Positions 4,785-19,702 of a stretch of 46,227 bases of DNA are shown here, piece after piece. The position numbers and the translations under genes are program-made. The stretch's first letter is position 1, and each line of letters opens with the position of its first letter. Source of the DNA: Synechococcus sp. BO 8801 (GTDB lineage: Bacteria; Cyanobacteriota; Cyanobacteriia; PCC-6307; Cyanobiaceae); the NCBI RefSeq assembly GCF_002252675.1, contig NZ_NQKY01000008.1, positions 1 through 46,227 of the forward strand, read 5' to 3'. The notes below the pieces were generated by a model. It did no database searches, was not told the DNA's origin, and was given only the letters and a program-made list of their open reading frames with translations.

Positions 4785-6272
4785 ATGCAGCCCCGTCCGG
4801 TGACCGCAGCACCCGCCTCCCCTCCCTCCGGGTTCGATTTCGACGTGATCGTGATCGGTGCCGGTTATGGCGGTTTCGATGCGGCCAAGCACGGCGCCGA
4901 CCACGGCCTGAAGGTGGCGATCGTGGAATCCCGTGACATGGGCGGCACCTGCGTCAACCGGGGCTGCGTTCCCTCCAAGGCCCTGCTGGCGGCCAGCGGC
5001 CGGGTGCGGGAGCTCGGCGACGCCGAGCACCTCAAGGGGTTCGGCATCCATGCGGCGCCGGTGCGCTTCGAGCGCCAGAAGATCGCCGACCACGCCGCCC
5101 AGCTGGTGGCCACGATCCGCACCAACCTCACCAAGACCCTGGAGCGGGCCGGCGCCACGATCCTGCGGGGCAAGGGGCGCCTCGACGGGCCCCAGCGGGT
5201 GGCGGTGCGCGAGGCCAGCGGCGTGGAGCGGGTGTATGCGGCCCGGGAGGTGATCATCGCCACCGGCTCCGATCCCTTCGTGCCGCCCGGCATCGAGACC
5301 GACGGCCGCACCGTGTTCACCAGCGATGAGGCCATCAACCTGGAGTGGCTGCCCCGCTGGATCACGATCATCGGCAGCGGCTACATCGGCCTGGAATTCG
5401 CCGACGTCTATACGGCCCTGGGCTGTGAGGTCACGATGATCGAGGCCCTCGACCGGGTGATGCCCACCTTTGATCCGGACATCGCCAAGATCGCCGCCCG
5501 CCATCTGATCGACGGCCGCGACATCGACGCCCGCTCCGGCGTGCTGGCCAGCAAGATCACCCCCGGCTGCCCCGTGAAGATCGAACTGGTGGACATGGCC
5601 ACCCGCGAACCGGTGGAGACCCTGGAGGTGGATGCGGTGCTGGTGGCCACCGGCCGGGTGCCGGTGAGCAAGGACCTCAACCTGGCCAGCATGGGGGTGG
5701 AGACCAACCGGGGCTTCATCCCCGTCGACGATGGCCTGCGGGTGCTGGCGAGTGGCGCGCCGGTGCCCCACCTGTGGGCCGTCGGTGATGTGACCGGAAA
5801 AATGATGCTGGCCCACACGGCCGCCGCCCAGGGCACGGTGGCGATCGAGAACATCCTCGGCCACGCCCGCCGCATCGATTACCGCTCGATCCCCGCCGCC
5901 ACCTTCACCCACCCGGAGATCAGTTCGGTGGGGCTCTCGGAAGCCGACGCCAAGGAGCTGGCCGCCGCCGAGGGCTTCGAGCTGGGAGCTGTGCGCAGCT
6001 ATTTCAAGGCCAACTCCAAGGCCCTGGCCGAACTGGAGAGCGACGGCCTGCTGAAGCTGCTGTTCCGCAAGGACACCGGCGAGGTGCTGGGGGCCCACAT
6101 CTACGGCCTCCATGCCGCCGACCTGATCCAGGAGATCGCCAACGCGGTGGCCCGGCGCCAGGGGGTGCGGCAGCTGGCCAGCGAGGTACACACCCACCCC
6201 ACGCTGAGCGAGGTGGTGGAAGTGGCCTACAAGCAGGCCGCCGCCAGCCTGGCCACGGCGGTGGGTGCCTGA
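4785..6272 (+). CDS. lpdA: Dihydrolipoamide dehydrogenase (E3)
   Basis: E3 reoxidises dihydrolipoyl groups of the pyruvate dehydrogenase complex and glycine cleavage system, passing electrons through FAD to NAD+. The 495-residue product starts with the FAD dinucleotide fold [14 protein letters not shown], has the redox disulfide [13 protein letters not shown], a second Rossmann motif [13 protein letters not shown] for NAD, the FAD-contacting GDVTG, and the C-terminal [11 protein letters not shown] with the catalytic His-Glu pair supplied across the dimer. An ATG 12 bases upstream (4773) abuts the AGGGGAGA purine run directly, so the downstream ATG with wider spacing is preferred. trpC begins two bases after the stop. 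The lipoyl-bearing E2 gene lies at the right end of the window. Confidence 0.95.
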
Positions 6273-6273
6273 G

Positions 6274-7158
6274 ATGGAGATCCGTCGCCGGCCCCCCAAC
6301 CCCTCGGTGCGGGTGGCCCACCTGGAATTCGGCACCCCCCATCCCGAGGAGAGCCCCCGCCACATCCTCGAGGAGATCGTCTGGGAAAAGGACAGGGAAG
6401 TGACGGCCGCCCGGGAACGGGTGAGCCTGGAGTCCCTCAAGCAGCAGGTGGCCGACCTGCCCCCCACCCGGGATTTTCTGGCGGCCCTGCGGGCCAGCTG
6501 CCGCAAACCGGCGGTGATTGCCGAGATCAAGAAGGCCAGCCCCAGCAAGGGGGTGATCCGGGAGGACTTCGACCCCGTCGCCATCGCCCGGGGCTACCGG
6601 GACGGCGGGGCCAGCTGCCTCTCAGTGCTCACCGACAAGCGCTTCTTCCAGGGGGGCTTCGAGGTGCTGGTGGCGGTGCGGGAGGCGGTGGAACTGCCCC
6701 TGATCTGCAAGGACTTCATCCTCACGCCCTACCAGCTGTTCCAGGCCCGGGCCGCCGGGGCCGATGCGGCCCTGCTGATCGCGGCGATCCTCACCGACCA
6801 GGATCTGGCCTATCTGCTCAAGGTGGCCCGGGGCCTGGGGCTGGCGGTGCTGGTGGAGGTGCACGACGCGGCCGAGATGGAGCGGGTGCTGCAACTGGAG
6901 GGTGTGAACCTGATCGGCATCAACAACCGCGATCTGGCCAGCTTCACGGTGGATCTGGCCACTACCGAACAACTGATGGAACGCTTCGGCGAGCAGGTGC
7001 GTGCCCGCGGTGCCCTGCTGGTGAGCGAATCGGGCCTGTTCAACCGGGAGGATCTGGATCGGGCCGTCGGCGCCGGCGCCGACGCGGTGCTGGTGGGGGA
7101 GGCGCTGATGCGCCAGGACGACGTGACGGCGGCCCTGGAGACCCTGATCGGGGGCTGA
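6274..7158 (+). CDS. trpC: TrpC, indole-3-glycerol-phosphate synthase
   Basis: TrpC closes the indole ring from carboxyphenylamino-deoxyribulose phosphate in tryptophan synthesis. The 294-residue TIM barrel shows the diagnostic [14 protein letters not shown] with the catalytic lysines, [47 protein letters not shown], and the phosphate-binding SESGLF and VGEALM. An N-terminal extension of about 60 residues precedes the barrel, as is usual in cyanobacteria. ATG at 6274 directly follows the lpdA stop (TGAG ATG); an in-frame GTG at 6265 overlaps lpdA and is less likely. The gene converges on ppk2, leaving 31 bases with no evident terminator. Confidence 0.95.
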
Positions 7159-7189
7159 GGTCCTCAGGGCCGCGGGTGGCGGGGGGCGC

Positions 7190-8092
7190 TCAGCCCTTCT
7201 CCAGGATGGCCCGGGCCGCATCCAGCTGGGCGCGGGCTTCCGGGCTCACCTCGGGATAACGCAGGTGCAGGGAATCGAGGGTTTCGATGATCGCGGCCGC
7301 CACGGCGATGCGGGTGAACCACTTGTTGTCGGCGGGCACCACATACCAGGGGGCGTGACGGCTGGCGGTATGCCGGATGGTTTCGTTGTAGGCGTCCATG
7401 TAGTCATCCCAGAAGGCCCGTTCCTTGATGTCGTTGGCGGAGAACTTCCAGTTCTTCTCGGGGCGGTCGAGGCGCTTGAGGAAGCGCTTGCGCTGCTCCT
7501 TCCTGGAGACGTTCAAGAAGAACTTCCGGACGATGATGCCATTGTTGCTGAGGTAGGTTTCGTAGTTCCTGATGTCCTGAAAACGCTCGTCCCAGATGCT
7601 CTTGGTGATGCGCTCCGCCGGAAGCGTCTGTCGGGCCAGCATCTCCGGATGCACCCGGACCACCAGCGTTTCTTCGTAATAGCTGCGGTTGAAGATGCCG
7701 ATCCGGCCCCGTTCAGGCAGGGCATTGTTGGATCGCCACAGGAAATCATGATCCAGATCCACCGATGAAGGCGCCTTGAAGGAGGTCACCTGGCATCCCT
7801 GGGGATTGACCCCGCTCATCACATGCTTGATGGTGCCGTCTTTGCCCGCCGCATCCATCGCCTGGAAGATCAGCAGCAGGGCGTAGCGATCCTGGGCATA
7901 GAGAAGATCCTGGAAGTGTGCCAGCATCTGTACGCCCATGGAGAGTGCCTCCTGGGCGCGGGGTTTGTCTTCCTGATCCAGATGCAACGTATCGCCGGGA
8001 TCAAAGTTCTTGAGATGGAAATCCTTCCCATCCTCAATCCGGAAGGGCCTGGCGAATGTTCTGGCGCGCTCGAGGAAGTCCTGTTTCTCCAT
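7190..8092 (-). CDS. ppk2: Polyphosphate kinase 2, class III-like (polyP:nucleotide phosphotransferase)
   Basis: PPK2 enzymes transfer phosphate between inorganic polyphosphate and nucleotides in the cytoplasm. The 300-residue product has Walker A QAMDAAGKDGTI (residues 78-89), Walker B-like IFNRSYYEETLVVRVHP (133-149) and lid-region RLDRPEKNWKF and HAPWYVVPADNKWF. The SYYE...LVVRVH form resembles class III enzymes, which phosphorylate both AMP and ADP, rather than the SWYNRAGVE form of class I; that sub-class call is from remembered family patterns. A good ribosome binding site (AGGAGAGA) precedes ATG 8092. It is transcribed divergently from the V-type ATPase operon across a 282-base spacer, and converges with trpC. 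Possible role: making ATP or ADP from stored polyP. Confidence 0.93.
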   Translation of the reverse strand: MEKQDFLERARTFARPFRIEDGKDFHLKNFDPGDTLHLDQEDKPRAQEALSMGVQMLAHFQDLLYAQDRYALLLIFQAMDAAGKDGTIKHVMSGVNPQGCQVTSFKAPSSVDLDHDFLWRSNNALPERGRIGIFNRSYYEETLVVRVHPEMLARQTLPAERITKSIWDERFQDIRNYETYLSNNGIIVRKFFLNVSRKEQRKRFLKRLDRPEKNWKFSANDIKERAFWDDYMDAYNETIRHTASRHAPWYVVPADNKWFTRIAVAAAIIETLDSLHLRYPEVSPEARAQLDAARAILEKG

Positions 8093-8159
8093 TCCCTTCT
8101 CTCCTTGCCTCGTTTCCAGTGTTAAGTCGTCTGCATGCGGTCCCAGATCCGGTCGCCAT

Positions 8160-8203
8160 CATTCGTAAACCATTCGCGGACCGTTCACATCCCATCCGCA
8201 AAC
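8160..8203 (+). promoter_or_regulatory. Four tandem 11-bp direct repeats between ppk2 and the V-ATPase operon
   Basis: Four consecutive 11-base units are CATTCGTAAAC, CATTCGCGGAC, CGTTCACATCC and CATCCGCAAAC. Positions 1 (C), 3 (T), 5 (C) and 11 (C) are invariant, and the layout is a 7-base core plus 4-base spacer. Direct repeats at 11-bp spacing are the binding pattern of PhoB-type response regulators (Pho box: two 7-mers, 4-bp spacers). The array lies 67 bases from the ppk2 start and 171 bases from the ATPase start, inside the 282-base spacer 8093-8374, which is less GC-rich than its surroundings. Nothing else firm is seen in that spacer; TAACAC (minus strand, near 8130) and TACACT (8308) are weak -10 candidates. 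The repeats are seen; their function is inferred. Confidence 0.5.
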
Positions 8204-8374
8204 AGACAGCGATCTGCCAGGTCCGATCCTTCACCCTAGCCACGGTGTGTGGGGTCGTCAGCCGTGAAGAACAAACCTTATCCCGATGGTTTTTCAGGGT
8301 CGCTGATTACACTGAAGGCGGAGAACAGACCGGCGTTCTGACGGCCCTTTCCCTGATTCTTCGGTCGATCGCCA

Positions 8375-9739
8375 ATGCCCGCCTCCCTGGTCAGTTATTC
8401 GAAGATTCTGGAGATCGTCGGCGATATTCTCCGGGTCGAGGTGCCGGCCGACGCCACCCACCGCGAAGGGGCGCCCCGGTTCAACGATCTGGCCGTGGTG
8501 CAGAACCGCAATGGCACTTCCTCCCTGGCCCAGGTGATCGCCCTGAAGCAGGATTCCGTGTCGCTGCAGGTGTTCCGCGGCACCAAGGGGGTGGCCACCG
8601 ACTCGGCGGTGCATTTCCTCGGCCATCCGATGCAGGCCACCTACTCCGGCAACATCCTCGGGCGGGTGTTTCGGGGCACCGGTGAGCCGATCGATGGGGG
8701 GCCTGGCCTTGAGGAGGATCCCAAGGTCCCGATCGGAGGTCCATCCGTCAACCCGATGTGCCGGATTCTGGCCTCCAAGATGATCCGCACCAACGTGCCG
8801 ATGATCGACGTATTCAACTGTCTGGTGGAGAGCCAGAAGATTCCGATCTTTTCGGTGTCGGGGGAGCCTTTCAACGCCTTTCTGGCCCGCATCGGGATCC
8901 AGGCCGACGCCGATGTGGTCGTGTTCGGCGGCCTGGGGCTGATCTTCGACGATTACTACGCCTTCCGGAAAACCTTCGAGGATGCCGGCGTCTTCGCCCG
9001 TACGGTGATGTTCGTCAACCTGGCCTCCGATCCGATCGTTGAGCGTCTGCTGATTCCGGACATGGCCCTGGCGGTGGCCGAACGGTTCGCCGTGGAAGAG
9101 GGCAAGCGGGTCCTGGTGCTGCTCACCGACATGACCTCCTTCGCCGATGCCCTCAAGGAGATCAGCATCGCCATGGATCAGGTCCCGGCCAACCGGGGCT
9201 ATCCGGGTGATCTCTATTCCCAACTGGCCCGCCGTTACGAGAAAGCGGCCGACTATGCCAAGGGCGGATCGGTGACCCTGCTCACGGTCACCACCATGCC
9301 CGGGGATGACATCACCCACCCCGTGCCCGACAACACGGGTTACATCACCGAAGGGCAGTTCTATCTGCATGACGGCGTCCTCGATCCTTTCGGCTCCCTG
9401 TCCCGGCTCAAGCAGAACGTGATCGGCAAGGTCACCCGCGAGGACCACAACCAGATCATGAACACCTGCATCCGCCTCTACTCGGGGGCACGGGATGCGG
9501 AGCAGAAGCAGGCCATGGCGTTCGAGCTGTCCGAGTACGACCAGCGGCTGATCCGATTCGGAGGGCTGTTCAAGGCCAGGTTCATGGACATCAACGTGGA
9601 TATCCCCCTGGAGGAGGCCCTGGACCTGGCCTGGACCACCCTGGCCGAGTGCTTCCAGGCCAGTGAACTTTTGATGAAGCAGGACCTGCTGGACAAGTAC
9701 TTCCCAGGCAACAGGCCGACGCCCCCTCCCACCGCGTAA
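8375..9739 (+). CDS. ntpB: V/A-type ATPase subunit B (non-catalytic)
   Basis: Subunit B alternates with A in the A3B3 head of V/A-type rotary ATPases. The 454-residue product is typical in length and sequence: RVFRGTGEPIDGGP, the degenerate P-loop region VSGEPFNAFLARIG without a GKT motif (so non-catalytic), VLLTDMTSFADALKEIS and MPGDDITHPVPDNTGYITEGQ. ATG 8375 is the natural N-terminus (MPASLVSYSKI) although no Shine-Dalgarno sequence is visible. It is the first gene of a seven-gene operon; ntpD starts five bases after its stop. In the related operons I know, B follows A; here A is at the far end. F-type beta is excluded because there is no catalytic P-loop and the B-subunit motifs match. 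Confidence 0.96.
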   Translation: MPASLVSYSKILEIVGDILRVEVPADATHREGAPRFNDLAVVQNRNGTSSLAQVIALKQDSVSLQVFRGTKGVATDSAVHFLGHPMQATYSGNILGRVFRGTGEPIDGGPGLEEDPKVPIGGPSVNPMCRILASKMIRTNVPMIDVFNCLVESQKIPIFSVSGEPFNAFLARIGIQADADVVVFGGLGLIFDDYYAFRKTFEDAGVFARTVMFVNLASDPIVERLLIPDMALAVAERFAVEEGKRVLVLLTDMTSFADALKEISIAMDQVPANRGYPGDLYSQLARRYEKAADYAKGGSVTLLTVTTMPGDDITHPVPDNTGYITEGQFYLHDGVLDPFGSLSRLKQNVIGKVTREDHNQIMNTCIRLYSGARDAEQKQAMAFELSEYDQRLIRFGGLFKARFMDINVDIPLEEALDLAWTTLAECFQASELLMKQDLLDKYFPGNRPTPPPTA

Positions 9740-9744
9740 GTCCC

Positions 9745-10347
9745 ATGGCCAGGCTCTCGCTCACCAAGGCTTCGCTGACCAAGGAGAAGTCCCTGCTGCG
9801 GACCTTTCAGGACGTCCTGCCGTCCCTGGACATGAAGCGCCGCCAGATCGGCGCGGAACGGGAGAAGGCCCGCCGCCTGCTGGCCGAGGCCCTGGCGAAG
9901 GCGGCGGCGCTCGAGCCGGACGTGGCAGCCCGGCTGCCGATGGTCGCCAACACGGCGATCGATCTCTCCAATCTGGTGACCATCGCCGCGCTGGAGATCG
10001 GCGAAGAGAACCTGATGGGTACCCGGCTGCCGGTCCTCCAGAGCCTTTCGTTCAAGGTCAGCCCCTATGGCCTGCTCACCAAGCCGTTCTGGGTCGACGC
10101 GCTGGTGGTTGTTCTCCAGCAGGCCATGGAGCAGACGATTCGCATCCAGGTGGCCCATCGCCGCGTCGAACGTCTTGAGCGGGCCGAGCGGATCGTGACA
10201 CAGCGCTATAACTTGTTTGACAAGGTGCTGATTCCAAGGGCCAAAAAGACGATTCGCAACATCTCAATTTATCTGGCGGATGCGGAACGGGCGGGTGTGG
10301 TCAATTCCAAGATTGCCAAACGCAAGAAGGAGCGCCAGACACCATGA
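9745..10347 (+). CDS. ntpD: V/A-type ATPase subunit D (central stalk)
   Basis: Subunit D is the coiled-coil rotor shaft that turns inside the A3B3 head. The 200-residue product begins with the typical LSLTKASLTKEKSLLRTFQDVLPSLDMKR-like helix, continues as long amphipathic helices, and ends with the second helix RVERLERAERIVTQRYNLFDKVLIP and ISIYLADAERAGVVNSKIAKRKKE, which is diagnostic of D. It follows ntpB by five bases and overlaps ntpI by four (ATGA), indicating coupled translation. Local composition is less GC-rich than the housekeeping genes: bases 10201-10260 contain 28 G or C of 60. That may indicate an acquired origin, though one short stretch does not prove it. Confidence 0.94.
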   Translation: MARLSLTKASLTKEKSLLRTFQDVLPSLDMKRRQIGAEREKARRLLAEALAKAAALEPDVAARLPMVANTAIDLSNLVTIAALEIGEENLMGTRLPVLQSLSFKVSPYGLLTKPFWVDALVVVLQQAMEQTIRIQVAHRRVERLERAERIVTQRYNLFDKVLIPRAKKTIRNISIYLADAERAGVVNSKIAKRKKERQTP

Positions 10348-12152
10348 CGATCGTTGCCCTGGCCAAGGTTTCTGTCTTCGGTCTTGCGGCCCAGAAGCAG
10401 GTGGTGCTGGAAGGATTGCAGGCCCTTGGATGTCTGCATCTGATTGATCTGGGACCAACGGCGGCCCCGGCTGATTTCACCTCGTCCCAACCGGCCGTTG
10501 AGGCCCGCGAAGCCCTGCGCTACCTGATGGATGTGCGCCAGCGCCGCTACCCGTTGAAGGTGGATTCCACGTTCCGGCTCGATGCCGTGGTGGCGAAGGC
10601 ACTGGAGAACCGCTCCCGCAAGCGGGCTGCCGAGGACAGAATTCTTGTCCTGCGCCACCATCTCGCCGAACTGGCCCCGTGGGGGAACTTCCGGCTGCCC
10701 GAACTGGCGGACCTCGGCGGCCAGCGGCTGTGGTTCTATCGGGTCCCCCATGGCAAGCTCGCGGCCTTCCAGCAGGCGCTCGATGGGCTGGCACTGCCGT
10801 GGCAGCGGGTCCACGCCAGCCCCCGGCACGGTTATGTCGTGCTCATCGCCGAACAGGAGCCCGACCAGAACCTCCTGCCGGTGAGGCGGGCCCATGTGGG
10901 TTCCGAGTCTCCCGAGGCGTTGAGGGCCGAACTGGACCAGGCCCATGTCGCTCTCGATGACATTGAAGCGGAGCATGTGGCCCTCAGCCGCTGGATCTTC
11001 CTGCTCTCCAGGCACCTGGTCCGGGCCGATGAACAGGTGGCCCTGGGTCAGGCCGGCCAGAAGACCGCTGATCTGGGCCATGTCTTTCAGGTGCAGGGCT
11101 GGATACCGCGCCAGGACCTTCCCCGGCTCACCTGCTTCGCCGAGGGGATGGGGCTGGCCACCTGGGCGGAAAGTCCGACCTCAGACGACTCCCCTCCCAC
11201 CTTGATGACGAATCCGGATGTGCTGGCGGGCGGCGAAGATCTCGTCACGTTCTACGAAACACCGGGGTATCGCGACTGGGATCCGTCGGTGGTGGTGTTC
11301 TTCTCCTTCGCCATCTTCTTCGCCATGATTCTGGCGGATGCGGGCTATGCCCTGGTGCTGGGTGTGCTGCTTGCCGTTTTCTGGAAAGGCATGGGGTCCA
11401 GGCCATCCTCGCGTCGCTTCCGTGTCCTGGCGGCGGTCGGGCTGCTGTTCTCGTTGCTCTACGGAATGCTGGCCGGGAGTTATTTCGGAGCGGCTCCCCC
11501 GCCCGACTCTCTTCTGGCCCACCTCCATGTGCTGAACCTGGACGACTTCGACACGATGATGAAGGTCTCGCTCGTGGTGGGCGCTTTGCATCTGATCCTG
11601 GCCAATGGAATCGTGGCGGTCCGTGGTGGTTCCATCGCTGAGCGGGCCAAGCCCATCGGCTGGATCGCGATCATTCTTGCGGGCCTCAGTCTCTACCTGG
11701 GGGCGGGCACGCCTGTGGGCCGGGATCTGGGCCTGGGCCTCGGCAGCGGCGGGCTGCTCACCATTCTGTTGCTGAGCAGCGAGCGGCCCCTGGATTCCTT
11801 CGGTTCTGTGCTGCTGCGATTGTTTGATGGGCTGTCCTCACTGGCGGAACTCTCCAAACTTTTCGGCGACGTGATGAGTTACCTGCGGTTGTTTGCCCTA
11901 GGCTTGGCCAGTGCCTCTCTGGCCCTGACGTTCAATCAGCTGGCGGCTGAAGTTTATCGCTCTGATGTGCCCCTTGGGGTCGTCATTGCGCTGCTGATCC
12001 TGCTTCTGGGTCATGGCATCAATCTGTTGCTTGCCATCATCAGCGGCTTCGTCCACGGTCTGCGGCTCAACTTCATCGAGTTCTTCAACTGGAGCCTTGA
12101 CGAGGAAGGCTACCCCTTCGCACCCTTCAGTAAAAAGGAGACGGCCTTATGA
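10344..12152 (+). CDS. ntpI: V/A-type ATPase subunit I (a-subunit, ion half-channels)
   Basis: Subunit I anchors the stator and provides the two ion half-channels beside the K ring. The 602-residue protein has a soluble N-terminal half (about residues 1-305) and a C-terminal half with about seven or eight membrane helices starting near FFSFAIFFAMILADAGYAL. The conserved channel arginine is visible in SYLRLFALGLASA (Arg515), and the closing HGLRLNFIEFFNW matches the end of the family. It overlaps ntpD and ntpK by four bases each. At about 600 residues it is close to the chlamydia/Bacteroidetes-type I subunits and shorter than eukaryotic a subunits. ATP hydrolysis-driven pumping is likelier than synthesis in a phototroph that also has F-type synthase (inference). 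Confidence 0.95.
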   Translation: MTIVALAKVSVFGLAAQKQVVLEGLQALGCLHLIDLGPTAAPADFTSSQPAVEAREALRYLMDVRQRRYPLKVDSTFRLDAVVAKALENRSRKRAAEDRILVLRHHLAELAPWGNFRLPELADLGGQRLWFYRVPHGKLAAFQQALDGLALPWQRVHASPRHGYVVLIAEQEPDQNLLPVRRAHVGSESPEALRAELDQAHVALDDIEAEHVALSRWIFLLSRHLVRADEQVALGQAGQKTADLGHVFQVQGWIPRQDLPRLTCFAEGMGLATWAESPTSDDSPPTLMTNPDVLAGGEDLVTFYETPGYRDWDPSVVVFFSFAIFFAMILADAGYALVLGVLLAVFWKGMGSRPSSRRFRVLAAVGLLFSLLYGMLAGSYFGAAPPPDSLLAHLHVLNLDDFDTMMKVSLVVGALHLILANGIVAVRGGSIAERAKPIGWIAIILAGLSLYLGAGTPVGRDLGLGLGSGGLLTILLLSSERPLDSFGSVLLRLFDGLSSLAELSKLFGDVMSYLRLFALGLASASLALTFNQLAAEVYRSDVPLGVVIALLILLLGHGINLLLAIISGFVHGLRLNFIEFFNWSLDEEGYPFAPFSKKETAL

Positions 12153-12601
12153 ACAACGACACATCCATTCTGGTCCTTGGCTGGATCGGTATCTATGCGC
12201 CGGTTGCGTTGGCGGCGATCGGTGCCTCCATCGGTTGCACCACGGCAGGGCAGGCGGCGATCGGCGCCATGATGGAGGTCAGCAGCGGCTACGGACGTTT
12301 CGTCGGTCTGTCGGCGCTGCCTTCATCGATGTCGATCTACGGCATCGTCGTGATGTTCATCCTCAACCGACCGGTGACTCCGGCCAATTCCGGTGGCCTT
12401 TTCGGCATCGGCCTGCTGTCGGGTCTGGCGTTCCTGATGGCGGCGATCTACCAGGGACTGTGCTGCGCTTCCGCCATTTCCGGGTCCAAGGCCAAGCCCG
12501 AGATCTTCGGCCTGTCCCTGGCGCCGGCCGCCATCGTGGAGGGCTTCGCCGTCTTTGCCTTCGTCTTCGCCCTGGTGGCGGCCGGGGGCATTCCCAAATA
12601 G
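12149..12601 (+). CDS. ntpK: V/A-type ATPase subunit K (membrane rotor ring, proteolipid)
   Basis: K subunits form the rotating ring that carries the transported ion. The 150-residue protein has four membrane helices, i.e. two fused hairpins. Only the second hairpin keeps the essential carboxylate: Glu131 in AAIVEGFAVFAFVF. The first hairpin has LPSSMSIYG at 57-65, where the sodium-type Enterococcus NtpK has LPGTQGLYG. Of the known NtpK sodium ligands, Glu139 and Gln110 correspond here to Glu131 and Gln102 (YQG), Thr64 to Ser60, and Gln65 to Met61. Loss of that Gln ligand makes proton transport plausible, but the ion is not settled by sequence. It overlaps ntpI by four bases (ATGA); a 99-base gap follows. 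Confidence 0.95.
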   Translation: MNNDTSILVLGWIGIYAPVALAAIGASIGCTTAGQAAIGAMMEVSSGYGRFVGLSALPSSMSIYGIVVMFILNRPVTPANSGGLFGIGLLSGLAFLMAAIYQGLCCASAISGSKAKPEIFGLSLAPAAIVEGFAVFAFVFALVAAGGIPK

Positions 12602-12700
12602 GGCCTCTGCGGCGCCTCTCTGGCGCTGGCGCCTGGGTTCCTTTCCTTTCTCCGCTCTCCTTTCCCTTCTCCGTTCTTCCTCCCCAGCCGGGCAGTTCCC
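12602..12700 (+). other. Intra-operon gap with GC hairpin and polypyrimidine tract
   Basis: This is the only real gap within the ATPase operon. A GGCGCC at 12611-12616 can pair with GGCGCC at 12628-12633, leaving an 11-base loop. It is followed at 12638-12685 by 48 bases of nearly pure C/T with only two G and no A. No Shine-Dalgarno sequence precedes the ntpE ATG at 12701. The stretch could attenuate transcription, separate two processed messages (B-D-I-K and E-DUF2764-A), or mark the join left when the operon was rearranged. No coding potential is seen. Confidence 0.55.
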
Positions 12701-13402
12701 ATGGCCAACCCGAAGAAGCTCCGGCATGACACGCCCCTGGCGGTGGCCTCCGGCGTGGAAGACCTGATCACGCGCCTGCGGGACCAGGGCGTCGAGCAGG
12801 GCCGCACGGAGGCCGACGCCCTGTTGAAGGAGGCCCAGGCCAAGGCCGCAGCCCTGCTGGCCCAGGCGGAGGAGCAGGCCCGGCAGATCGTCGATCGGGC
12901 CAGGACCGAGGCCGCCTCCCTCCAGACCGCGGGGCAGCAGGCCCTGGAACTGGCTTTCCGCGACGCCAACCTGGCCCTCAAGGCCCAGCTCAGTGACCGC
13001 TTCACCGGTGAGGTGCGCCAGCTCGTCGGGGAGGAGCAGGAGAAGCAGGAGATCCTGGAGCGGATGATCCTGGAGATCGTCGGCACGCTCCGCCCGGAAG
13101 CCGACCAATCCCAGCAGGTGGAGGTGCTGCTGCCTCGGCGGATCGCCGGCCTGGCCGAACTCAGCCAGCATCCCGAGGAGCTGGAGCAGGGCATCCTCAG
13201 CCGCTTCGTGCGCCTCACCGCCCGGGGCCTGCTGCGGGAGGGGGTCAGCTTCGGCGTTTCGAAGGGCCCCCAGGCCGGACTGAAGCTGAAGCTGGTCGAC
13301 CGGGATGTGGTGCTGGATCTGACCGATGCGGCGATCGCCCAGACCCTGCTGGCCCACCTGCAGCCCCGGTTCCGGGCCCTGCTGGAGGGGGTGGTGAAGT
13401 GA
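12701..13402 (+). CDS. ntpE: V/A-type ATPase subunit E (peripheral stalk)
   Basis: Subunit E is the peripheral stalk helix that ties the A3B3 head to subunit I. The 233-residue product has an Ala/Glu/Gln-rich N-terminal coiled coil of about 80 residues (GRTEADALLKEAQAKAAALL onward) and a globular C-terminal domain ending LAHLQPRFRALLEGVVK, as in E subunits. In this ATPase type no separate G subunit gene is known to be needed. ATG 12701 begins MANPKKLRHD; there is no visible ribosome binding site, only a pyrimidine-rich leader. The next gene starts seven bases after the stop. The identification rests on domain pattern and operon context rather than on strong motifs. Confidence 0.88.
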   Translation: MANPKKLRHDTPLAVASGVEDLITRLRDQGVEQGRTEADALLKEAQAKAAALLAQAEEQARQIVDRARTEAASLQTAGQQALELAFRDANLALKAQLSDRFTGEVRQLVGEEQEKQEILERMILEIVGTLRPEADQSQQVEVLLPRRIAGLAELSQHPEELEQGILSRFVRLTARGLLREGVSFGVSKGPQAGLKLKLVDRDVVLDLTDAAIAQTLLAHLQPRFRALLEGVVK

Positions 13403-13409
13403 GCGCCCG

Positions 13410-14093
13410 ATGAAGTACGTCGTCCTGATGGCCAGCCTGCCGCCCCTGGGGTCGCTGTTTGAAGCCGCGACGCCACCGATTTCCAGGCTCAAGCTGGAAC
13501 ACCGCCTGGGACTGCTGGAGTCCCCTGATCGCCACACCCTCGAGCAGATCGCCAATCTGATCGCCTGGTCGTCCCAGCCCCTGGAGCGCAGTGATGCGGC
13601 GTTCATCCAGGAGGCCCATGGCTTCCTGACCTCCAACCGCAACCCCACCCTGCGGAGCCTGGTGACGCAGCGCCTGGACATGCGCACGATCGTGGCGGCC
13701 CTGCGCCGCCGTCGCCACGGCGAAGCCCAGCCGCCCAGCGGTGAGATCTGGGGGTTCGGTGAATGGGTGGGAATGATCGAGCGCAACTGGAGTGCCCCGG
13801 CATTCCAAATGGAGGCGATCTTTCCCTGGCTCAGGCAGGCTCACGACCTGTTGGAGAAGGACGACCTGATCGGCTTTGAGAAGTTGCAGTTCTCCGTCGT
13901 CTGGGCGATGTTGAATCGCCTTGCCGCGGGCCATGAGTTTGATTTTGAAGCCTTGATCATCTATCTGGCGCGCTGGAGTCTGGTCAGCCGTTGGTCATGC
14001 TACAAAGGAGAAGCGGCCGTCGCCCGTTTTCGTGAGCTGGTGGATGCGGGGCTCGGAAATCACAAAGAACTCTTTTCAGGTGCATCTCAATGA
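13410..14093 (+). CDS. DUF2764 protein, presumed C-like subunit of the V/A-type ATPase
   Basis: In chlamydial, spirochaetal and Bacteroidetes V/A-ATPase operons a DUF2764 protein sits between E and A and is thought to stand in for subunit C, the coupling between rotor shaft and K ring. This 227-residue product occupies exactly that position and starts with MKYVVLMASLPPLG, close to the family's usual start; it is predicted helical, with a Trp-rich middle (GEIWGFGEWVGMIERNW). No membrane segment or nucleotide motif is seen. It lies seven bases after ntpE and overlaps ntpA by four bases (ATGA). The family call is from memory and context; a profile search would settle it. Confidence 0.78.
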   Translation: MKYVVLMASLPPLGSLFEAATPPISRLKLEHRLGLLESPDRHTLEQIANLIAWSSQPLERSDAAFIQEAHGFLTSNRNPTLRSLVTQRLDMRTIVAALRRRRHGEAQPPSGEIWGFGEWVGMIERNWSAPAFQMEAIFPWLRQAHDLLEKDDLIGFEKLQFSVVWAMLNRLAAGHEFDFEALIIYLARWSLVSRWSCYKGEAAVARFRELVDAGLGNHKELFSGASQ

Positions 14094-15967
14094 ACAGCAG
14101 CATTGAGTCTCTCCCTGACTACAACCCTGCCAGCGTTGTGGCCGTTCAGGATGATCTCGTCACGATCCAGATGGCCGAGGCCAAGCCACGGCCCCTGCTC
14201 AAGAATGAGGTGATCTATATCTGCCTGCAGAACCGTGGTGGCGAACGCCAGGAAAAGCTGAAGGCTGAGGTGCTGCGGGTGCGGGGCCGCCTGGCCGATG
14301 CCCAGGTGTTCGAGAGCACCAAGGGGGTCGGCATCGGCGATCCGGTCGAGCAGACGGGCGAGCAGCTCTCCGTCACCCTTGGCCCCGGTCTGCTGGGCCA
14401 AGTCTATGACGGGCTGCAGAATCCGCTGGCCCAGCTCGCCGCCGGCTACGGCACGTTTCTGCCCCGGGGGGCTGAAGTCTCGCCGCTGGACACCGAGAGG
14501 AAGTGGTCGTTCCAGCCGGCGGCCCGGATCGGGGACACCCTCCATGCCGGGGATGGGATCGGCACCGTCCAGGAAGGCCGGTTCACCCACAAGATCATGG
14601 TTCCCTTCGACCAGCAGGGGACCGTCACCCTGGACTGGATCCAACAGGGAAGTTTCACGATCGACACCGCCGTGGCCCGGATCACCGAGGCCTCCGGGGC
14701 GACGCGGTCGCTGACGCTGACGCAGCCGTGGCCGGTGCGCCGCCCCCTGCCCCAGGCGCTGCTGGAGGCCCACCGCTGCGAGCGGCTCTACCCCCAGGAG
14801 CCGATGATCACCACCCAGCGGATCATCGACACGTTTCTGCCCATCGCCCGGGGCGGCACCGGCTGCATTCCGGGGCCCTTCGGCGCCGGCAAGACCGTGC
14901 TCCAGAACCTGATTTCGCGCCACTCCGATGTGGACATCGTGCTGGTGGTGGCCTGCGGGGAGCGTGCTGGAGAAGTGGTGGAAACGATCACCGAATTCCC
15001 CAAACTTTCCGATCCAAAAACCGGCGGTTCGCTGATGGACCGCACCATCATCATCTGCAACACCTCCTCGATGCCGGTGGCGGCCAGGGAGGCCTCCATC
15101 TACACCGGACTCACCCTGGGTGAGTACTACCGCCAGATGGGCTACAACGTGCTGCTGATCGCCGATTCCACCTCCCGCTGGGCCCAGGCGATGCGGGAAA
15201 CCTCCGGACGTCTGGAGGAGATTCCTGGTGAGGAGGCGTTTCCCGCCTATCTCGATTCCTCGATCAAGAGTGTCTACGAGCGGGCCGGCATCATCCGCAC
15301 CAACGACGGCTCCGTCGGCAGCCTCACCATGATCGGAACGGTGTCGCCGGCGGGGGGCAACTTCGAGGAGCCGGTCACCCAGTGCACCCTGGGAACGGTG
15401 AAGGCCTTCCTGGGGCTGAGTGCGGAGCGGGCCTACAAGCGTTTCTATCCGGCCGTCGACATCCTGCTCTCCTGGTCGCGCTATTTCCAGCAGCTCGAGG
15501 GCTGGTTCTCCCAGCATCTCTCCCCGGACTGGGTGGGGCGCGTCGCCGCGATGAACGCCCTGCTCAAGGAGGGCGACCGGGTCAGCCAGATGATCCAGGT
15601 GACGGGGGAAGAGGGGGTGAGTCTGGAGGATTTCGTCGTCTTCCAGAAGGCCCAGTTCCTCGACATGGTGTACCTCCAGCAGGATGCCTTCGATGCCGTC
15701 GACTCCACCACGCCCCTGGAGCGCCAGAAGACCTCCTTCGACCTGGTCTTCGACCTGCTGCACCGTGACCGCGCCTTCCCCGACAAGACAGCCGCCCGGG
15801 ACCACTACACCCGGCTCACGGGTCTGTACCGCAACCTGAACTACGCCGCCACCGGCTCCCCCACCTACGCCGGCTATCTGCAGCAGATCCAGGCCCTCGC
15901 CGCTCTGCCCGCAGTGGCGGCCGCTCAGCCCGGGGAGGCTGCCGTCCCGGCTGGTCCATCAGCCTGA
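14090..15967 (+). CDS. ntpA: V/A-type ATPase subunit A (catalytic)
   Basis: Subunit A holds the catalytic sites of the A3B3 head. The 625-residue product carries the Walker A GPFGAGKT at residues 262-269, the A-specific non-homologous insertion before it (about 115-215), CGERAGEVVE, and the LLIADSTSRWAQAMRE and GRLEEIPGEEAFPAYL motifs characteristic of A subunits. It is somewhat longer than the usual 580-600 residues because of an Ala/Pro-rich tail (after about residue 605) that overlaps the convergent methyltransferase gene by 43 bases. It is the last gene of the operon, coupled by ATGA to the DUF2764 gene. A complete, intact catalytic site argues that the enzyme is functional. Confidence 0.97.
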   Translation: MNSSIESLPDYNPASVVAVQDDLVTIQMAEAKPRPLLKNEVIYICLQNRGGERQEKLKAEVLRVRGRLADAQVFESTKGVGIGDPVEQTGEQLSVTLGPGLLGQVYDGLQNPLAQLAAGYGTFLPRGAEVSPLDTERKWSFQPAARIGDTLHAGDGIGTVQEGRFTHKIMVPFDQQGTVTLDWIQQGSFTIDTAVARITEASGATRSLTLTQPWPVRRPLPQALLEAHRCERLYPQEPMITTQRIIDTFLPIARGGTGCIPGPFGAGKTVLQNLISRHSDVDIVLVVACGERAGEVVETITEFPKLSDPKTGGSLMDRTIIICNTSSMPVAAREASIYTGLTLGEYYRQMGYNVLLIADSTSRWAQAMRETSGRLEEIPGEEAFPAYLDSSIKSVYERAGIIRTNDGSVGSLTMIGTVSPAGGNFEEPVTQCTLGTVKAFLGLSAERAYKRFYPAVDILLSWSRYFQQLEGWFSQHLSPDWVGRVAAMNALLKEGDRVSQMIQVTGEEGVSLEDFVVFQKAQFLDMVYLQQDAFDAVDSTTPLERQKTSFDLVFDLLHRDRAFPDKTAARDHYTRLTGLYRNLNYAATGSPTYAGYLQQIQALAALPAVAAAQPGEAAVPAGPSA

Positions 15968-18028: not shown

Positions 18029-18940
18029 TCAACGCCTGCCTGATGCGACGCCCTGCTTGAGGCGACGGGCGACGGACTTCAGATCCTGCATCAGGCAGGA
18101 GATCCTGGTCTTCGTTGTCAAGGCGATGGGGTCGTCATAGCCCAGGGCCTCGCGCAATCTGTGCAGCGACTGTGACTGCGTGGCTTCCCGAAAGATCGCT
18201 GTGGTGAAGGGGTGGCGCTTCATGAGCCGTGGGCGTTCGGCTTTGCGGCCACTGGCCCCGGAGCCCATCTCAGCGCGTGAAATCTGGATCGGATGTTCCG
18301 CCGCTTCCAGGCGGGATGCGGCGGCGTCGCCAAGTACAGAGGAACGGATCCGATCCCTTTCGCGCTGCTCATGCAGGGCGAGGGTCTCGATGTGCAGGTT
18401 GATGAGGGGGTGGCTGTGGTTGCTCCACGCCAGCCAGCTGTTGAAGTAAAAGTCTGCGTAGTCATCGAGGCGCTCAAAGGCGTTCGCCATCGAAGAGAAG
18501 GAGCGGCGCATGGCGAGCCATGTGTCGAAAGGGTCGCGATGGGTGAAAAAGCAGGTATGGGGAATCTGGCGGTCGTCAAGCATCTCCACCAGGCTTGGTG
18601 CGGCTGAGCCATCAGGGAAATGCCGGAATCTCCAGCCCTCGCCAAAGGTGTGGTCGCGGATCATCAGGACGGAAGCCTCCTGATGGGCGAGGAAGCTGTC
18701 GACGAGCAGATCAAGCCGTCGTTTGTACTCCTGGAGGGCCTCTTCCCTGGTGAACAGCTCCAGGGCTCGAACCCGATGCAAGGGATCTTCTGGGAAATAG
18801 GTTGTCGGTGAGTTGTAGGAGTAAGGGTTGGTTTCGCCGGTGAGCCAGGCGTTCCCATCCAGGACTTTGGCGATGTAGTGAAAGAGGTAGGTGCCTGCGG
18901 AACAGGGAAGATTGGCGACCAGGACAATTCGTTTGTCCAT
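18029..18940 (-). CDS. Sulfotransferase-like P-loop protein
   Basis: Sulfotransferases move a sulfuryl group from PAPS to an acceptor. The 303-residue product starts RIVLVANLPCSAGTYLFHY, which has the position and character of the 5'-phosphosulfate loop, and has THRDPFDTWLAMRRSF, resembling the 3'-phosphate binding region with conserved Arg and Ser. The C-terminal half is not typical, so substrate and even activity are uncertain. ATG 18940 is preferred to one 36 bases upstream because AAAGAGAG lies just before it. Composition is lower than neighbours (35 G or C in bases 18841-18900), suggesting possible acquisition. It stands alone between the rpsD terminator and the MFS gene. Confidence 0.62.
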   Translation of the reverse strand: MDKRIVLVANLPCSAGTYLFHYIAKVLDGNAWLTGETNPYSYNSPTTYFPEDPLHRVRALELFTREEALQEYKRRLDLLVDSFLAHQEASVLMIRDHTFGEGWRFRHFPDGSAAPSLVEMLDDRQIPHTCFFTHRDPFDTWLAMRRSFSSMANAFERLDDYADFYFNSWLAWSNHSHPLINLHIETLALHEQRERDRIRSSVLGDAAASRLEAAEHPIQISRAEMGSGASGRKAERPRLMKRHPFTTAIFREATQSQSLHRLREALGYDDPIALTTKTRISCLMQDLKSVARRLKQGVASGRR

Positions 18941-18974
18941 GCTCTCTTTCTGATGGCTCGCGATCATAGGCCGC

Positions 18975-19002
18975 AAAAAGCCCCCGCTGGTGGGCGGGGG
19001 CT
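18975..19002 (-). terminator. Intrinsic terminator of rpsD
   Basis: Read on the minus strand, AGCCCCCGC (19002-18994) pairs perfectly with GCGGGGGCT (18987-18979) around the six-base loop CCACCA, followed by five T residues (18979-18975, the first shared with the stem). It begins 26 bases beyond the rpsD stop codon. This is the cleanest terminator in the window, and it separates rpsD from the sulfotransferase-like gene on the same strand. Confidence 0.88.
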
Positions 19003-19028: not shown

Positions 19029-19637
19029 TCAGACCTTGCGGCTGTAGAACTCCACCACCAGCAGTTCGTTGATTTCGAGGGCGACCCATTCGCGCTCGAT
19101 GCGGCCGCCCACCTTGGCGGTCATCTTGGCCTTGTCGAACTCGAGGTGGGGCGGGATGTTGGCCAGGCCGGGGAAGGCCAGATTGGCTTCGGCCAGGGCC
19201 TTGCTGCACTTGCGCTCGCGGATGGCGACCACGTCGCCGGCCCTGCACTGGTAGCTGGGGATGTCCACCACACGGCCGTTCACGGTGACGTGGCCATGGT
19301 TCACCAGCTGGCGGGCACCGGGAACGGTGGGGCCGAGGCCGAGGCGGAAACAGATGTTGTCGAGTCGGTTCTCGAGCAGCTTGAGCAGGTTGGTTCCGGT
19401 GGAACCCTCCTGGGCACGGGCTTTCTTCACGTAGCGCACCAGCTGACGTTCGGAAATGCCGTAGTTGAAACGCAGTTTCTGCTTTTCTTCGAGACGGATC
19501 GCGTATTCGGAGCGCTTGCGACGGGCTTGGCCGTGCTGACCGGGGGGATAAGACCGTTTGGCGGCCTTACGGGTGAGACCGGGAAGGTCCCCCAAGCGCC
19601 GCGTGATCCTCAGGCGAGGGCCGCGGTAGCGAGACAT
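19029..19637 (-). CDS. rpsD: 30S ribosomal protein S4
   Basis: S4 binds the 5' domain of 16S rRNA early in small-subunit assembly. The 202-residue product has the N-terminal [21 protein letters not shown], the middle [16 protein letters not shown] and the S4 RNA-binding domain [34 protein letters not shown]. The frame is open 36 codons upstream, but MSRYRGPRL at 19637 is the canonical start. It is followed by a strong terminator, so it appears to be monocistronic, and it is divergent from yidD. Confidence 0.97.
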
Positions 19638-19702
19638 AAGGGAAGGTGACGGAGGTGGATGGTGCGGCCCTGGGGCCGGACGGCGTGGTTCACGCTTGCG
19701 GC

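Follow-up and report, generated by a model that had tools for sequence, protein, structure and literature searches.

What use might a picocyanobacterium that holds an F-type ATP synthase have for a rotary ATPase of the V/A type as well? The question is raised by a locus of Synechococcus sp. BO 8801 (contig NZ_NQKY01000008.1, positions 1 to 46,227; this whole stretch of 46,227 nucleotides is called the window here). The window lies on contig 3 of a 3.27-Mb genome that is 99.7% complete with 0.3% contamination. An earlier note, made from the letters of the window, had described an intact seven-gene V/A-type ATPase at 8375-15967, and the reading frames, families, motifs and selection all bear it out. 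The locus is almost certainly an intact, compact V/A-type rotary ATPase of the seven-gene class marked by DUF2764. We consider it the likelier account, on the whole, that this enzyme would be an ATP-driven H+ pump with a C/d-like DUF2764 subunit, backed here by polyphosphate through a polyphosphate kinase of the PPK2 family. The PPK2 gene, divergent from the operon, is an addition to the account given in the earlier note. The seven frames are intact and stand in the order B-D-I-K-E-DUF2764-A:

8375..9739, + strand: subunit B of V1 (NF002555, 720.8 bits)
9745..10347, + strand: subunit D, central shaft (PF01813, E 2.5e-30)
10344..12152, + strand: subunit I/a, stator and ion channel with Arg515 (PF01496, E 2.3e-15; motif)
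12149..12601, + strand: subunit K/c, ring, two hairpins with Glu131 and Met61 (PF00137; alignment to 2BL2)
12701..13402, + strand: subunit E, peripheral stalk (NF002424, E 3.7e-19, below cut-off; no Pfam match)
13410..14093, + strand: DUF2764 protein, very probably a shortened C/d by its fold (PF10962, 26.3 bits against a cut-off of 24.1)
14090..15967, + strand: subunit A, catalytic (NF003220, 759.7 bits; Walker A GPFGAGKT)

Every one of the seven frames is matched by a Pfam or NCBIfam model at E<=1e-5, although some NCBIfam scores stay under the curated threshold (186 bits against 189 for D, 69 against 241 for E and 199 against 851 for I). The Walker A, Arg515 and Glu131 named in the earlier note are all present: the motifs of the catalytic subunits are intact (GPFGAGKT at A262, SLSRL at B341), the channel motif of I reads SYLRLFALGLA and holds Arg515, and the duplicated ring subunit K has one carboxylate, Glu131, and a profile that aligns with 2BL2 across both hairpins. 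Ratios of nonsynonymous to synonymous substitution rates (dN/dS) of 0.015-0.43 for the seven genes, compared pairwise with the related loci L017, L026 and L036, indicate that all seven are maintained by purifying selection (loci are numbered here with L and genomes with G). The same gene set (A, B, D, E, I, K and DUF2764) is found in Parabacteroides and Bacteroides records, and a separate F-type ATP synthase is present in the genome, with six of the six subunits sought (alpha, beta, gamma, delta, epsilon and a). The description of the operon as complete holds for the seven-gene class and fails against classical V/A enzymes. Subunit F (PF01990) had no match in the genome at E<=0.1, with matches in 6 of 14 control genomes, and classical subunit C (PF01992) had none at E<=1, with matches in 8 of the 14. 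The operon is without C, F or G genes, no dedicated search having been made for G. An F gene is likewise not in the Bacteroides and Parabacteroides operons; a Pusillibacter plasmid operon holds F and a gene called "V-type ATPase subunit". The Enterococcus hirae and Thermus V/A-ATPases share the core A, B, D, I and K and the C fold with the window enzyme; C, F and G are distinct classical subunits in them.

The fold of the DUF2764 protein points to one of these missing parts. An AlphaFold2 model built from 48 sequences reached a mean predicted local distance difference test score (pLDDT) of 89.6 and a predicted template modelling score of 0.82; the model of subunit E was poor (pLDDT 63.4), too poor for a structure search. 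Structural realignment of the best 1000 chains from Foldseek placed V-ATPase C/d or Vo entries in all of the five top ranks (8eas_d, 7uzf_d, 1r5z_A, 6wlw_Q, which we take to be subunit d, and 1v9m). The C/d chains gave Z scores of 9.6-10.6 over 192-203 aligned residues at root-mean-square deviations of 4.4-4.8, values that helical proteins may reach from a common arrangement alone, and the next-ranked, unrelated structure gave a Z of 5.2. The protein has about two thirds of the length of the matched chains. Foldseek by itself returned nothing at E<=0.001 and did not recover C/d, which counts against the assignment, and a sequence search of the PDB with the DUF2764 profile gave a best E of 0.6, which is not credible. 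The assignment is likely because the first five ranks belong to one family, and that family is the one expected from the operon. The modelled DUF2764 protein thus very probably corresponds to C/d, and with this fold it would most likely be the socket that joins the shaft (D) and the K ring. No description of DUF2764 as C/d was found in the literature searched, mostly by titles and abstract openings. In the excerpts of PMC10790697 (papers are cited here by PubMed Central number and from excerpts throughout) the Bacteroides gene is annotated just as DUF2764 with no function assigned, and the role of the enzyme is said not to be known.

Alignment of K with the E. hirae ring (2BL2) sets Glu131 at Glu139, Gln102 at Gln110, Ser60 at Thr64 and Met61 at Gln65. 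The authors of PMC2359735 have given the Na+ ligand set as Leu61, Thr64, Gln65, Gln110 and Glu139 (E. hirae numbering), and the predicted Na+ enzymes in that paper carry Ser, Thr, Gln or Arg at the Gln65 position. The full set is not present in K, where Gln65 is Met61 and Thr64 is Ser60, and this lowers the likelihood of a Na+ pump. Methionine in place of the Na+ ligand Gln65 predicts H+, and from these ring residues the transported ion is probably H+. Among relatives, 89 of 97 loci could be typed at this position, with 53 Gln, 21 Met, 13 Phe and 2 Asn. All 21 Met-type rings are cyanobacterial, yet the cyanobacterial loci L033 and L030 have Gln and Asn. The enzyme would work as an ATP-hydrolysing H+ pump and not as a synthase, because the ring has one carboxylate per four helices and Met for Gln and because the F-type synthase is also present.

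If the enzyme spends ATP, its source becomes the next question, and the gene upstream of B offers a candidate:

7190..8092, - strand: PPK2 polyphosphate kinase (PF03976, E 1e-63; TIGR03709, 387 bits against a cut-off of 247)
8093..8374, no strand: PPK2-B intergenic region, between the divergent genes

The PPK2 gene lies 282 bases upstream of B. The closest solved structures are 6an9 and 6au0, "PPK3 Class III" (polyphosphate:AMP/ADP phosphotransferase; 321 bits). Against NF042973 the protein scores 406.6 bits, under the cut-off of 450. Class III is a putative assignment from the nearest structures, and polyphosphate-dependent phosphorylation of AMP and ADP is predicted. The gap between PPK2 and B has just short conserved blocks among six relatives, for which reason a shared regulatory motif was dropped as a candidate. 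PPK2 of the window type adjoins the operon in all eight V-ATPase-bearing genomes of the genus, and broken pieces of it were found in G003, G017 and G032, three of the 34 genomes of the genus that are without the V-ATPase.

In a minority of loci the operon has an ATP-forming kinase next to it or within it, and those that recur are three types of PPK2, carbamate kinase and acetate kinase. When the neighbours of 85 loci were clustered, with clusters resembling shadow frames of the operon set aside, PPK2 was the most widespread neighbour family, in 15 loci. The window type is upstream in the group of the window and downstream in L028, L036 and L038; a class I-like PPK2 lies inside the operon between B and D in L034, L035 and L039 (class tested for L034), with a broken upstream copy in L037; and in Exilibacterium (L054) a two-domain PPK2 is immediately upstream of B. 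Carbamate kinase is within 2 kb upstream of B in L047, L057, L060, L069, L070, L071, L101 and L122, and all of these except L122 also hold other genes of the arginine deiminase cluster. On the Tateyamaria plasmid (L122, 8037-9011) carbamate kinase stands alone, and its gene shares 11 bases with the start of B. The DUF2764 gene of that locus matches in two frames and may be broken. Acetate kinase is downstream of A in L081, L090 and L093. Overall, 26 of 89 loci (one of them counted twice, L032 being L114) have an ATP-forming kinase no more than 2 kb from the operon, as do 22 of the 62 whose flanks extend 2 kb or more on each side. Kinases are 14 times as dense within 2 kb as at greater distances (26 in 300 kb vs 4 in 647 kb, 88 loci; binomial p 7e-10, uncorrected for kinship and with within-operon matches counted as near), and the kinase label makes at least 10 changes on a tree of 48 rows. 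Linkage was found for 23 of the 36 typed loci whose rings are without Gln and for 2 of the 53 whose rings have it (Fisher 4e-10, short-flanked loci being counted as unlinked). No linkage of a V-ATPase with PPK2 or carbamate kinase was described in the titles and abstract openings of the literature searched. As a separate observation, a PiT-type phosphate transporter with a small partner gene lies 0.1-6.2 kb from the operon in the cyanobacterial loci L032, L035, L036 and L040. The transporter in L036 matches PF01384; the partner gene, which has no Pfam match, may be DUF47-like.

From these observations a mechanism can be put together. The class III-type PPK2 might supply ATP to the pump from polyphosphate when light and respiration fail, and the pump so fed could keep up the proton motive force or the internal pH. 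In darkness cyanobacteria keep their F-type enzyme from hydrolysing ATP, and a separate ATP-driven pump would therefore make sense at that time. That the neighbouring kinases of phosphate stores or fermentation feed the pump is suggested by linkage, and we put it forward tentatively. Doubtful, although possible, is the wider proposal of a bacterial V-ATPase family turned into proton pumps on substrate-level ATP, in which the loss of the ring Gln and the recruitment of kinases fell in the same two lineages. Under that proposal the rings of the two lineages would have lost the sodium-binding Gln (to Met in cyanobacteria, to Phe in an alpha- and gammaproteobacterial group), and their operons would have recruited a local ATP-forming kinase (class III, class I or two-domain PPK2, carbamate or acetate kinase). 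Several findings weigh against these steps. Some PPK2 match exists in 42 of 42 genomes of the genus and an intact PPK2 of the window type (62-72% identity) in 10 of the 34 that are without the V-ATPase, so PPK2 also occurs independently of the pump. The kinase classes were picked after the neighbours had been inspected, and kinship is uncorrected in the ring-linkage test as in the density test. The correlation of ring and linkage rests on about two clades, for which an independent-pairs test has no power. In evenly drawn samples, kinase linkage was found in 0 of 9 gammaproteobacterial loci read (L131-L139), in 1 of 4 alphaproteobacterial loci besides the search centre (L148, probably identical with L060; L150 is short-flanked) and in 0 of 2 cyanobacterial loci besides the window (L114 and L115). 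The retained Ser60, Gln102 and Glu131 of K, finally, leave room for Na+.

These three residues also speak for an alternative in which the enzyme is a Na+ pump against salt or alkaline stress, as has been suggested for a Bacteroides relative, and PPK2 is a chance neighbour. The Bacteroides fragilis enzyme reportedly has all of the conserved Na+ residues and is critical in deoxycholate (PMC10790697). Gln is kept in most typed relatives (the 53 of 89 given above), and seawater and saline soil are among the sources of the carriers. The replacement of Gln65 by Met61, confined to cyanobacteria as described above, runs against a Na+ pump, as do the linkage with PPK2 in 8 of 8 cases in the genus and the linkage of other PPK2 types in other lineages, and we regard it as unlikely for the window. 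Alternatively, the enzyme could serve an acidic, phosphate-storing compartment resembling an acidocalcisome, with PPK2 and, in some strains, the nearby phosphate transporter forming a phosphate module; PPK2 adjoins the operon, the PiT-type gene is near it in four cyanobacterial loci, and the nitrate vacuole of a marine Beggiatoa is acidified by a V-ATPase, according to work cited in PMC4853749. The same paper has noted non-acidic polyphosphate granules in a Beggiatoa, and the window itself showed no match to PiT. We know of no acidic membrane-bound compartment in picocyanobacteria, and this explanation seems improbable. A second ATP synthase for special ion gradients is conceivable in that V-type enzymes are reversible and ATP synthesis is possible for the V-ATPase of E. 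hirae (PMC12018189). The genome has its F-type synthase, however, and a neighbouring ATP-forming kinase would be of more use to a consumer of ATP. One carboxylate per double hairpin also implies a low ratio of ions to ATP. A synthase is the most improbable of the alternatives.

The H+ pump that we favour is encoded at a chromosomal site with a history of its own, between two markers:

6265..7158, + strand: trpC, left border of the site (NF001372, passes cut-off)
19029..19640, - strand: rpsD, right border of the site (homology; site comparison)

The earlier note had named cyanobacterial core genes on the flanks; trpC passes its model cut-off, lpd falls just under (405.5 vs 408.8 bits), and rpsD is used as a marker under the name given there, by homology only. 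The arrangement lpd-trpC-PPK2-operon-rpsD is whole in G004, G009, G013, G015 and G016 and partial in G012. In eight of the nine stretches read from other genomes or sites (L105-L109, L111-L113), trpC and rpsD are 0.8-5.8 kb apart with no operon between them; the ninth (L110) shows trpC alone. G003 carries a deletion scar (L105, 1706-2122) in which the 3' end of PPK2 (window 7100-7428) is joined to the 3' end of A, in pieces matching window 15635-15714 and 15847-15888, so the whole operon was lost there. The possibility of contamination or misassembly, which the earlier note had kept in view, was ruled out by the same locus in the five other genomes and by this scar, and the site is on a true picocyanobacterial chromosome. 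Synonymous divergence from L017 is 0.36-0.66 for the operon and PPK2 vs 0.13-0.31 for lpd, trpC and rpsD, consistent with the island having passed between strains. We infer that the locus is an accessory island, horizontally spread and lost again in places. Base composition, in which the earlier note had seen signs of acquisition, adds little. The GC content of the operon genes (0.62-0.71) is indeed lower than across much of the window (0.70-0.76); GC at third codon positions is 0.77-0.92 for the seven genes vs 0.89 +/- 0.06 for 25 other window frames, with rpsD at 0.82, and as proof of transfer low GC was set aside as weak, owing to this overlap.

Other observations at this site stand by themselves. 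In G001 a 450-base piece of PPK2 stays at trpC (L110, 2021-2470) and the operon is on another contig. The V-ATPase of G001 is that of another picocyanobacterial clade and has a separate PPK2, as if one copy had been lost and another gained. The trpC fragment groups with the window PPK2 (92/96) in a PPK2 tree with 2 of 12 inner branches starred, which was used solely for placing this fragment. Compared with L026, window 7190-15967 is a mosaic, with A and PPK2 95-99% identical and D, I and DUF2764 just 81-83%, which looks like an exchange of the central part of the operon. A 315-aa protein without a Pfam match (window 18029-18976) has matches at the same site in L017, L018, L019 and L021 and not in L020; what is carried between A and rpsD thus differs from strain to strain. 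In L115 (7173-9856; G184) a 2.7-kb insertion separates DUF2764 from A, and its 404-aa frame looks transposon-borne.

The operon is rare in cyanobacteria, as had been supposed. B was found in 8 of 42 genomes of the genus (7 of 33 when completeness of 90% or more and contamination of 5% or less are required) and in 3 of 386 sampled cyanobacterial species including that of the window, or 2 of 385 others, so it is not common across the group. It was found in 5 of 385 Alphaproteobacteria, search centre included; in Gammaproteobacteria a B at least 58% identical was found in 11 of 369, search centre included, and any match at E<=1e-80 in 24 of 369. A scan of named genomes gave 432 relatives, and among the best 80 of these the cyanobacteria come first at 80-96% identity, followed mostly by Pseudomonadota at 73-79%; one Verrucomicrobiota and two Gemmatimonadota are also among them, and the nearest non-cyanobacterial relatives are gamma- and alphaproteobacterial. 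Relatives on plasmids include those of Qingshengfaniella and Tateyamaria and a truncated one on a Halomonas plasmid. The gene order B-D-I-K-E-DUF2764-A is kept wherever all seven genes are visible. Exceptions are the tubeworm-symbiont loci L049, L050, L055 and L059, where A does not follow within the stretch (in L055 it is about 6.6 kb beyond DUF2764), and the Gemmatimonadota locus L094, whose A gene is located in another part of the genome. The 55-59% relatives L138 and L139 have the order A-B-D, as in Bacteroidota records, so the order in the window is a cyclic permutation of it. A second, distant class of V-type ATPase (41-45%) was seen in G423, G425 and 13 other gammaproteobacterial genomes, and G423 and G425 hold it alongside the compact one.

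The earlier note had looked to trees of A and B for signs of transfer. In every A+B tree the cyanobacterial rows are on one side of a branch with 98-99% support in the Shimodaira-Hasegawa-like approximate likelihood ratio test. With midpoint rooting and nearer outgroups the cyanobacteria nest inside Pseudomonadota, and with Bacteroidota and clostridial outgroup rows they are also among Pseudomonadota; in the nested trees the gammaproteobacteria L046 and Candidatus Venteria ishoeyi (L052) are next to them. A Bacteroidota-only outgroup placed the root inside the picocyanobacteria, a sign of too distant an outgroup. In approximately unbiased tests, a clade of the 36 non-cyanobacterial ingroup rows was not rejected (p 0.527; the tree held to it was 0.14 log units better), nor, with the nearer outgroups, was a clade of 24 such rows (p 0.327). 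The direction of transfer is thus not settled by the trees. Horizontal spread as such is supported by the patchiness, the plasmid-borne relatives, the history of the locus and the single cyanobacterial clade beside gammaproteobacteria.

V-ATPases of picocyanobacteria (PMC7434838) and the compact class (PMC10790697) are already in print; the operon, rare as it is, is not a novelty in the group. The strains for which the authors of PMC7434838 have reported V-type ATPases are WH5701, BO8801, PCC7336, PCC7001 and some from the Black Sea; they call the role of these enzymes in coastal Synechococcus "enigmatic" and have Methylococcaceae and Rhodospirillaceae among the closest holders. WH5701 and BSA11S of that report have the same seven genes in the same order, a B 84% identical to that of the window and a PPK2 74-76% identical alongside (L036 and L038). 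Their PPK2 is downstream of A on the other strand, whereas that of the window is upstream of B, and the WH5701 operon is about 6 kb beyond rpsD, whereas the window operon is between trpC and rpsD. The Bacteroides enzyme (ptos_002482-88, PMC10790697) has the same seven-gene set including DUF2764. It differs in the order E-DUF2764-A-B-D-I-K and in a ring that keeps the Na+ residues, where the window has Met61; the B of Parabacteroides is just 46% identical to that of the window. The alpha- and gammaproteobacterial operons (for example in Roseibium, Ruegeria, Marichromatium, Methylotuvimicrobium and Venteria) share the gene order, with B 73-79% identical among the best 80 of 432; some adjoin arginine deiminase genes or acetate kinase, not PPK2, and many adjoin neither.

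For the family, DUF2764 as the C/d socket would explain how so few subunits make a whole enzyme, and this concerns every bacterium with the class. The recurrent kinase neighbours suggest a testable purpose, that of a pump spending ATP made outside the membrane chain. If this is true, the module would let cells hold their proton motive force when photosynthesis or respiration comes to a halt and reversal of the F-type synthase has to be avoided, and in oxygenic phototrophs it would bear on the survival of long darkness.

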